Assembly (NCBI GenBank): GCA_031272715.1
Contig: JAISTH010000073.1
Span: 1-64,000, forward strand
Reading direction: 5' to 3'
Origin: Desulfovibrio sp.
Lineage (GTDB): Bacteria > Desulfobacterota > Desulfovibrionia > Desulfovibrionales > Desulfovibrionaceae
Length of the DNA: 64,000 nt
A program made the translations under genes and the position numbers. Below are positions 5,488-55,308 of this stretch, in pieces. Each line of letters begins with the position of its first letter. Positions within the stretch are counted from its first letter, which is position 1. The notes beneath the pieces are model-generated. The model was not told the origin of the DNA. It ran no database searches and worked only from the letters and a program-made list of their open reading frames with translations.

Positions 5488-5768
5488 GACGGGGATAACT
5501 CCTGGGGGACGGCGTCAATGGTCCTGGCTGCCGCCGGGGGCACCGGGTCGAAGCCGAAGCCCCCGAAGGGGCGGCATCTGGCCAGCCGGCGCAGGGCGAG
5601 CCATCCGCCTCGGAGGATGCCGTGGCGGAGTATGGCCTCGGATGCGTATTCCGAGCAGGTGGGGTGGAAGCGGCATCCCGGGGGCAGAATGGGGGAGATG
5701 CACCACTGGTAGAGGCGTATGGGGAGAACGCACAGGGCGCGCAGCCCCGTCCTGGCCGTGATCTTCAA
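5484..5768 (-). CDS. yidD: Membrane protein insertion efficiency factor YidD
   Basis: YidD is a small membrane-associated protein that assists YidC. It shows the family core [20 protein letters not shown], then the SEYA and [14 protein letters not shown] motifs. The start is taken as TTG, which gives a 94-residue product and overlaps the rnpA stop by 4 bases; no ATG or GTG lies before the conserved core. It overlaps yidC by ATGA at its other end, so the three genes are probably coupled in translation. Confidence 0.93.
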
Positions 5769-6304
5769 TGTCTTCGCATCCCTCGCCGCAGCAGCGGCGC
5801 CAGTTCGGCTGCCACCCTTTCGAGGGTGAGGGCGGCGCCGCCTGCATGCTTCTTGGCTATGGCCACAACGTCGGTCTGCGGGGGGAGCAGGTCGGCGTGC
5901 AGACGGAAGAATTCCCGCAGCAGGCGCTTGATGCGGTTGCGGACGACGGCCTTGCCCACCTTGCGGGAGACGGCCATGCCGGTCCGGGGACCGGGGAGGC
6001 CGTTGCCGAAGCGCAGGAAGAGGAGGAAGTGGTCCGAATGCCGGCGCTCGCCATGGGCGTAGCAGGCGTCGTATTCGGATTTTCTCCTGATGCGCGAACG
6101 TGAAGGCTGGAAGGATCCGTTGCCGGAGGCCTGCCGGGGAAGCCCCGGACACGTCCTGTCGGCTATGCGCTCAGGCGCTTGCGGCCCTTGGCGCGACGGC
6201 GTCGGAGAATGGCCCTGCCGGCCGGCGTCGCCATCCTGGCGCGGAAGCCGTGGGTGCGGGCTCTGCGGATTCTGCTTGGCTGGTATGTTCTCTTCATTGC
6301 TCAT
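5765..6304 (-). CDS. rnpA: Ribonuclease P protein component, extended form enclosing rpmH
   Basis: RnpA is the protein cofactor of RNase P in tRNA 5' maturation. The family core begins at [18 protein letters not shown] and holds the RNR signature as [16 protein letters not shown]. Between the rpmH stop and this core, the rnpA frame contains no ATG, GTG, TTG or CTG. The only standard start is an ATG 7 bases upstream of the rpmH start, giving 179 residues with an N-terminal extension read out of frame through all of rpmH. This matches the nested arrangement described in Thermus. The alternative is a short protein of about 115-120 residues from a non-standard codon (ATA or ATC). The gene identity is certain; the start is the open question. 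Confidence 0.88.
6163..6297 (-). CDS. rpmH: 50S ribosomal protein L34
   Basis: A 44-residue ribosomal protein with the invariant start MKRTYQPS, then [18 protein letters not shown], and a basic [13 protein letters not shown] tail. It is first in the rpmH-rnpA-yidD-yidC-khpB-mnmE operon. The whole gene lies within the extended rnpA frame, and the two ATG codons are separated by four bases. No strong Shine-Dalgarno sequence precedes either start. Confidence 0.96.
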
Positions 6305-6814
6305 ACTACTGCGCGGTATGCCCCTGGGAATGGGGGGAAGCGCAGCCTCCGTGGTTCCTGGTGGAGTGGGCCGCCATCGGACGTCTCTCGTCGGCGGAAA
6401 GGCGCCCACAGGGGGCGCGACAGCATCATCGTCTCCGCCCGACGACGCCAGTCGCTCGGGGCGACGTGCGGTCCGGTCCGTCGATCCGGGATCGCGGCGG
6501 GAAAGGTCCCGCAAGCGGAAGACGTCGGGCGTCCCGGGCTGGACCGGACGGGACCGAATCGAATGTGTTCGGCGTCCGGGCATGAAGATGTGGGAATCTA
6601 CACACGGAGGTGCGGGGCGTCAAGGATGTGGCGCGATGCCGGACAGCGGACCGCGGGGGAGATTGGCCAGCGCCGGGCTTCCGTGGGCGGGCATGTCTCC
6701 GTCCGTCCCTTGCAACGCCTCGTTCAGGCATGGCAACAGGCCCTGAAGTGGCGCCCTGGGCGCCGACTTCCCACACCCCTCCCGATGGTCGGCCTCTTCG
6801 CGTTCCTTCGGCCG
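6305..6814. other. Intergenic region upstream of the rpmH operon
   Basis: About 510 GC-rich bases between two leftward genes. It must hold the rpmH operon promoter. I see no DnaA boxes, no AT-rich unwinding element and no convincing gene; the long frames here lack family signatures. There is therefore no sign that the replication origin is at this rpmH, unlike in some bacteria. Confidence 0.5.
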
Positions 6815-43779: not shown

Positions 43780-43853
<74 letters not shown>

Positions 43854-43890
43854 TCAAGGAGCATTGACCGAAGAAAATCGCTTTGCATTT

Positions 43891-43967
<77 letters not shown>

Positions 43968-43979
43968 TATTGCGCTTAT

Positions 43980-44054
43980 GCGGGAATAACTCAATGGTAG
44001 AGTGTCAGCTTCCCAAGCTGAAGGTTGCGGGTTCAAATCCCGTTTCCCGCTCCA
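43980..44054 (+). tRNA. tRNA-Gly (UCC)
   Basis: The acceptor GCGGGAA pairs with TTCCCGC, the anticodon loop is TTCCCAA (read UCC), and CCA is encoded. The sequence becomes strongly AT-rich right after this gene, so it may be an integration site. Confidence 0.92.
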
Positions 44055-55217: not shown

Positions 55218-55308
55218 GGAGGGATGGCAGAGCTGGCCGATCGCGGCAGCCTTGAAAGCTGTTGAGGGCGTATGCCCTCCGGGGGTTCGAATCCCTCTCC
55301 CTCCGCCA
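55218..55308 (+). tRNA. tRNA-Ser (UGA)
   Basis: A class II tRNA with a long variable arm. The acceptor GGAGGGA pairs with TCCCTCC, the anticodon loop is CTTGAAA, and CCA is encoded. tRNA-Ser genes are common integration sites; an acquired gene block starts downstream. Confidence 0.95.

Follow-up and report, generated by a model that had tools for sequence, protein, structure and literature searches.

How translation of rnpA begins is not obvious at a locus where its reading frame runs through the whole of rpmH and holds no standard start codon between the end of rpmH and the conserved RnpA core. Such a locus lies in the 64,000-nucleotide stretch of Desulfovibrio DNA analysed here (the window), from a draft genome (101 contigs, 80% complete) in which one copy of rnpA was found. 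The best reading is probably a nested start that was gained anew in this species and repeatedly in the order, and we assign a probability of roughly 0.58 to the proposal that rnpA of the window is translated from AUG 6304, with L34 nested in another frame and RnpA carrying an N-terminal extension of about 65 residues.

The rpmH-rnpA locus of the window

An earlier note on this DNA had claimed that rpmH lies entirely inside a longer rnpA frame. ORF reading and Pfam matches bore this out: the whole of rpmH (6297..6163) is enclosed, in a different frame, by the rnpA reading frame (6304..5765).

6163..6297, minus strand: rpmH (ribosomal protein L34, 44 aa), ATG at 6297-6295 and stop TAG at 6165-6163; PF00468, E = 1.3e-23
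5765..6304, minus strand: rnpA in the nested-start reading, 179 aa; PF00825 (Ribonuclease_P) at residues 68-174, E = 3.2e-26
6302..6304, minus strand: putative rnpA start ATG, forming ATGA with the stop of an upstream ORF
6164..6166, minus strand: near-cognate ATA, a rival candidate for the rnpA start, which overlaps the stop of rpmH as ATAG
6595..6623, minus strand: sigma-70-like promoter TTGACG-17-TAGATT upstream of rpmH-rnpA, a consensus match (one found, 0.2 expected)

As the note had also stated, the rnpA frame of the window offers no ATG, GTG, TTG or CTG from the rpmH stop onward until the RnpA core begins, and the only near-cognates in that interval are the ATA at the stop, one AGG and one ACG. 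The nearest standard start is ATG 6304, separated from the rpmH ATG (6297-6295) by the four bases AGCA, so that the first bases of the two codons are 7 nt apart. The spacing was thus described correctly in the note; the statement that this ATG is the sole standard start was not, since the frame stays open further upstream and the longest ORF runs from ATG 6583 (272 aa). A start that far up, right after the predicted promoter, appears extremely unlikely. The frame is open to 6583 and a -10-like box lies 11 bases from that ATG, but long open frames are common in the GC-rich members (stop-to-stop lengths reaching 882 aa among the matches listed), and rpmH would still lie inside rnpA, which makes this reading a variant of nesting.

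Downstream of rnpA, Pfam matches in the window were to YidD, YidC, Jag and MnmE. The start of yidD is seemingly a TTG sharing bases with the rnpA stop (TTGA, 5765-5770), in which case each gene in the series rpmH, rnpA, yidD would overlap the next. The Rfam matches of the window at gathering level included no RNA element near rpmH; they were four tRNA genes only, three in a row on the plus strand at 43780-44051 and a fourth at 55218-55305.

Starts of rnpA in the genus, family and order

PF00825 was matched in 73 of the 79 genomes of the genus. The set of 74 genus junctions, read with profile-based placement, includes that of the named relative Desulfovibrio sp. ZJ369 (L032), which is identical to G025 at the junction, so that this junction is counted twice; in one further member (G047) rpmH is cut by the contig end. 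In 73/74 junctions a standard start of rnpA follows rpmH or lies within its final codons, the exception being the window; 68 of these starts are past the rpmH stop and five are a GTG eight bases before the rpmH end. Because rnpA begins in these relatives downstream of rpmH or in its final codons, its frame relative to rpmH has shifted among them (0/1/2 in 25/23/26 of the 74), and no extended rnpA frame has been kept in the genus. The earlier note had left it between a solution that arose and one that was kept, and had named frameshifts among relatives as a result against its reading; within the genus the frames do differ, which speaks against a kept arrangement, and in this species it is most likely a new gain. 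It was not seen in any close relative, the best DNA matches in the genus showing identities of about 64-72% in the part that aligned. An open frame through rpmH proves nothing in itself because 59/109 junctions of the family with a separated, later standard start have one, as do 38/74 in the genus (the unreadable G047 is in both counts); an open frame together with an in-frame ATG at most 25 nt upstream was found in 5/109 of the separated family junctions. As a side observation, contig 26 of G062 carries a second, divergent RnpA (L075) with no rpmH detected on the stretch read, perhaps on a foreign contig.

The comparison was extended to the family and order. Among 288 family genomes searched 272 gave a match, and of the 245 loci taken 241 were usable (dropped: the second G062 locus, G131, G213 and G271); 29 of the 272 matching genomes were left out (27 of g37, G278 and G279). 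Outside the family 50 of the 57 matching genomes of the order were read, giving 291 junctions in total. One class was defined by an in-frame ATT beginning 13 bases before the rpmH end. The 241 family junctions comprised 103 of this ATT class, 23 nested, 109 separated with a later standard start and 6 others, and the 50 junctions outside the family comprised 34 ATT (in f2, f3 and f5), 8 nested (7/7 of f4, and G307 of f3) and 8 separated.

The in-frame ATT in the rpmH tail, present in 137/291 junctions (103/241 and 34/50), looks like the ancestral AUU start of rnpA in Desulfovibrionales. The RnpA anchor lies exactly 17 nt past rpmH in 100/103 family ATT junctions. The triplet is made by a codon ending in A followed by a leucine codon, TTA or TTG; the preceding codon is AGA, AAA, CAA or CGA, and the constant part is that final A, the TT of the leucine codon and, mostly, a further A. 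In the family ATT genomes with a GC content above 0.60 the tail leucine is TTA in 42/47 and TTG in 5/47, whereas the other leucine codons of rpmH and the rnpA core in the same genomes are TTA in 10/766 and TTG in 98/766 (p = 6e-55 for TTA, kinship ignored). At the 34 ATT sites outside the family the bias is weaker (TTA 22, TTG 12). Use of TTA instead of TTG puts an A at position 4, directly after the AUU, a position whose base has been studied as a determinant of start recognition (PMC9841429).

In 44/103 family ATT junctions the rnpA frame is stopped inside rpmH with no ATG, GTG or TTG from there to the core (37 of them lack CTG as well), and the same holds, for ATG, GTG and TTG, in 18/34 ATT junctions outside the family, so that nesting and a standard start are both excluded in these cases. 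Between the AUU and the core, ATG, GTG and TTG are missing in 93/103 family and 33/34 other junctions; a standard codon follows in the remaining ten family junctions (nine TTG, one ATG). At the tail place none of the 109 separated family junctions has an ATT in any frame, and two of the eight separated junctions outside the family (G337 and G344) have one out of frame. Beyond the order the AUU layout was found in 0/29 usable junctions out of the 30 best-scoring phylum matches, a sample biased to high scores; three of the 29 (G650, G453 and G386) have an in-frame ATT with a later standard start too, and these together with the two out-of-frame cases show that an ATT at this place can occur without the AUU layout. 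Six of the 29 lack any later standard start. In three phylum junctions outside the order (L308, L314 and L319; G541, G368 and G563) there is an ATG at -28 from the rpmH start as placed, a frame open far upstream, no later standard start and an atypical rpmH tail, possibly a further nested lineage.

Two departures from the pattern were noted. In three loci of f3/g49 (L254, L255 and L293; G309, G308 and G310) the ATT has been lost and a TTG four bases before the rpmH end, overlapping the stop, replaces the start. In L176 (G154) the RnpA core frame is offset from an ATT still present in rpmH, perhaps through a sequence error.

AUU initiation would depend on ribosomes that have just finished rpmH. 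The same ribosomes would be at hand for a frameshift from rpmH into rnpA, which lies in the -1 frame, and such a frameshift could replace AUU initiation in the wider order. This appears very unlikely: the run preceding TTA or TTG (AGA, AAA, CAA or CGA) is no constant slippery run, and the product would be an L34-RnpA fusion.

At the place of the AUU the window has CCT (rpmH tail CGC CTG) and so lies outside the ATT class. Its rnpA could still start close by, at or after the rpmH stop, through reinitiation on a non-standard codon, likeliest AUA 6166, which would give an RnpA of about the usual genus length. The order seemingly uses a non-AUG start almost at that place, and AUA starts exist in bacteria, as at ccpN and citZ in S. 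aureus, where non-canonical starts are put at about 10% of AUG (PMC13009471). The ATAG at the rpmH end is rare, its ATA occurring in 3/74 genus junctions including the window, but the other two (G034 and G041) have rnpA in another frame with a standard start. Moreover, three near-cognates in about 30 codons is close to chance (6 of 64 codons, 2.8 expected), no Shine-Dalgarno (SD) motif lies ahead of AUA 6166, and the upstream ATG would become an unrelated coincidence of the kind seen in 5/109 separated junctions. We regard an AUA start as unlikely and retain AUG 6304 as the preferred start.

Probable nested lineages and proposed ribosome loading

If AUU was ancestral, as the 291 junctions suggest, one of two kinds of rescue would mostly have followed its loss: a standard start located past rpmH or within its final codons, as in the rest of the window's genus, or, in about four lineages, an in-frame AUG ahead of rpmH, which leaves rpmH nested in rnpA. 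The distribution of upstream ATGs is consistent with this. Neither the ATT nor a later standard start is present in 37/291 junctions, and 31 of these 37 have an in-frame ATG at most 25 nt upstream with an open frame; elsewhere a usable upstream ATG was found in 9/254 (4/137 ATT and 5/117 separated; Fisher's exact test, p = 9e-28, kinship ignored). The six exceptions are G154, with its frame offset, and G168, G079, G093, G166 and G215, which lack the ATT, a later ATG, GTG or TTG and a near upstream ATG; G079, G093 and G166 have a TTG or GTG upstream (in G166 a GTG at -13). By eye, a CTG at -7 in L206 (G215) and an ACG at -16 in L087 (G168), counted from the rpmH end, are possible non-standard rnpA starts.

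The nested junctions take several forms. ATGCATG was found in 13/13 g39 junctions read, an ATG at -22 in 7/7 f4 junctions read and an in-frame ATG at -16 in G307, and the AUGNAUG spacing, with first bases 4 nt apart, occurs in 18/23 nested family junctions, the window not among them. G136 of g22 and the window share ATGAGCAATG. The nested junctions of g39, g22, g17, f4 and G307 offer rnpA no standard start downstream of the rpmH start codon. In a midpoint-rooted tree of three short proteins (L34, RnpA and YidD), which does not include f4 and G307, a single clade of 25 members (support 0.855) unites every nested junction of the family except that of the window (22 in all) with G082 (g3), G166 and the separated G212; the window stands apart within its own genus. 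G082 has both the ATT and an ATG at -4 and is likely an intermediate between AUU and nested starts. Nesting would thus have arisen in about four lineages, namely the g39/g22/g17 clade, f4, G307 and the window.

The GGAG motif precedes the rpmH AUG by 7 nt in g39, g22 and g17 and the rnpA AUG by 3, 0 or -6 nt, the last value meaning that the rnpA AUG overlaps or precedes the motif; in g39 one GGAG stands 3 and 7 nt ahead of the two starts. A short SD spacing disfavours the first of two starts according to spacing data in PMC9841429, from which L34 should exceed RnpA in these groups. In f4 the rnpA AUG is located upstream of the rpmH SD and so needs another loading mode. A conserved RnpA extension was considered and rejected: third positions of rpmH are not clearly more conserved in g39 and g22 (ratios 1.01 and 0.68) than in eight other groups (0.70 to 1.43). 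Since no extra constraint is visible, the extension was taken as a by-product, and in these two groups it bears no sign of selection as a protein; the start and the open frame appear to have been kept instead.

The earlier note had suggested that one ribosome-loading site serves both genes of the window, which is not what the leader contains. With an SD-like motif defined as a 4-mer at -18 to -4 of the rpmH start, none precedes either AUG 6304 or AUG 6297, and among the 240 readable rpmH genes of the family set only that of the window lacks it (240 rather than 241, G047 being truncated by the contig end); in the rest of the order 0/50 lack it. Initiation free of SD motifs across the window's species was ruled out, since such a motif was seen by eye at 11/13 start sites of the S10 region, a count that leaves out a 14th printed site as a wrong start.

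The two oddities of the window, the only junction of 74 without a later start and the only rpmH of 240 without an SD motif, could share a cause, and in a draft genome this could be a sequencing or assembly error, or a variation of the single strain, that conceals a standard start after rpmH. We think this quite improbable given that the RnpA, L34, YidD and YidC matches are intact, that the frame of the window aligns by eye with LTLPRRSRMRRRAEF of G054 as far back as the point where the RnpA core begins, and that the whole of rpmH separates the missing start from the missing SD.

Three features of the leader bear on how ribosomes might reach the two AUGs of the nested pair.

6301..6429, minus strand: upstream ORF of 42 codons starting ATGATG, its stop TGA (6303-6301) lying on the rnpA ATG; proposed loader by termination-reinitiation
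6433..6436, minus strand: GGAG preceding the upstream ORF, 3 and 6 nt ahead of its two ATGs
6308..6346, minus strand: hairpin predicted in the interval from GGAGG (6350-6346) to the start codons, -18.2 kcal/mol, unexceptional against shuffles (z = -1.33)

The stop of the upstream ORF overlaps the rnpA start by 4 nt (ATGA), and three bases separate it from the rpmH ATG. Ribosomes would reach the AUG pair mainly by terminating on this short ORF and would then choose the rnpA AUG or the rpmH AUG, which would couple both yields. The case for the ORF as loader is suggestive only. Among 2000 shuffled leaders a 40-codon ORF ended at that place in 39%, and one with an SD-like motif as well in 3.7%, and given the latter figure the ORF may be a chance occurrence. 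It is nevertheless a likelier loader than a shared SD. As a minor idea, the hairpin could place GGAGG close to the start codons; in a longer predicted fold of the leader the GGAG is partly paired.

The full sequence of events, in which an ancestral AUU start sensitive to IF3 and tied to L34 was repeatedly lost, about four lineages were rescued by AUG nesting, and the pair in the window lost its ribosome binding site and came to be fed by the upstream ORF, is held tentatively, at slightly less than even odds. When IF3 is overproduced, reinitiation at an SD-less AUG falls almost threefold and non-canonical starts are said to be inhibited (PMC2268962). If the scheme is true, the supply of RNase P would be IF3-sensitive and tied to L34 synthesis, and nesting would have a visible reason, an upstream AUG arising where the AUU start was lost. 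Gene callers that accept only ATG, GTG and TTG would then misplace the rnpA start in these genomes.

Comparison with known systems

The RnpA of Thermus carries a long extension. The rpmH/rnpA start site there is AUGGAUG, with one base between the codons and first bases 4 nt apart (PMC9841429). The likeness to Thermus drawn in the earlier note holds for the frame relation and fails for the spacing, which is four bases between the codons in the window. In both, rpmH lies wholly inside rnpA in the same frame relation with the AUGs a few bases apart, and an extended RnpA is predicted from sequence in the window. The window differs in that its starts are 7 rather than 4 nt apart, in that it has no SD motif to serve both starts, and in its upstream ORF ending in ATGA. 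The ATGCATG of g39 has the same shape as the AUGGAUG of Thermus, and Thermus-like nesting likely recurs in Desulfovibrionales. In the open papers searched, neither an rnpA with an AUU start nor rpmH/rnpA nesting outside Thermus was found; the rnpA of D. vulgaris is DVU1075 (PMC3114432).

With the putative AUU start, rnpA would join a small set of genes that begin with AUU, which includes infC and pcnB of E. coli (PMC9410913) and cvfC1 of S. aureus (PMC13009471). Like these, the rnpA of the order has a conserved AUU that is expected to be weak and IF3-sensitive; unlike these, its AUU sits within the final codons of a gene for a ribosomal protein, and the window is without it.

Among short arrangements of gene pairs on one strand in E. 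coli, the 4-nt ATGA overlap is described as the most frequent (PMC10666635). The window resembles termination-reinitiation pairs of this type in that the stop of its upstream ORF forms ATGA with the rnpA start, and departs from them in that two starts within 10 nt lead to two nested genes. The ambiguous AUGUG and GUGUG sites of E. coli likewise have one loading region, two starts and two frames (PMC9841429); there the starts overlap, whereas in the window the two codons stand apart and both encoded proteins have housekeeping roles.
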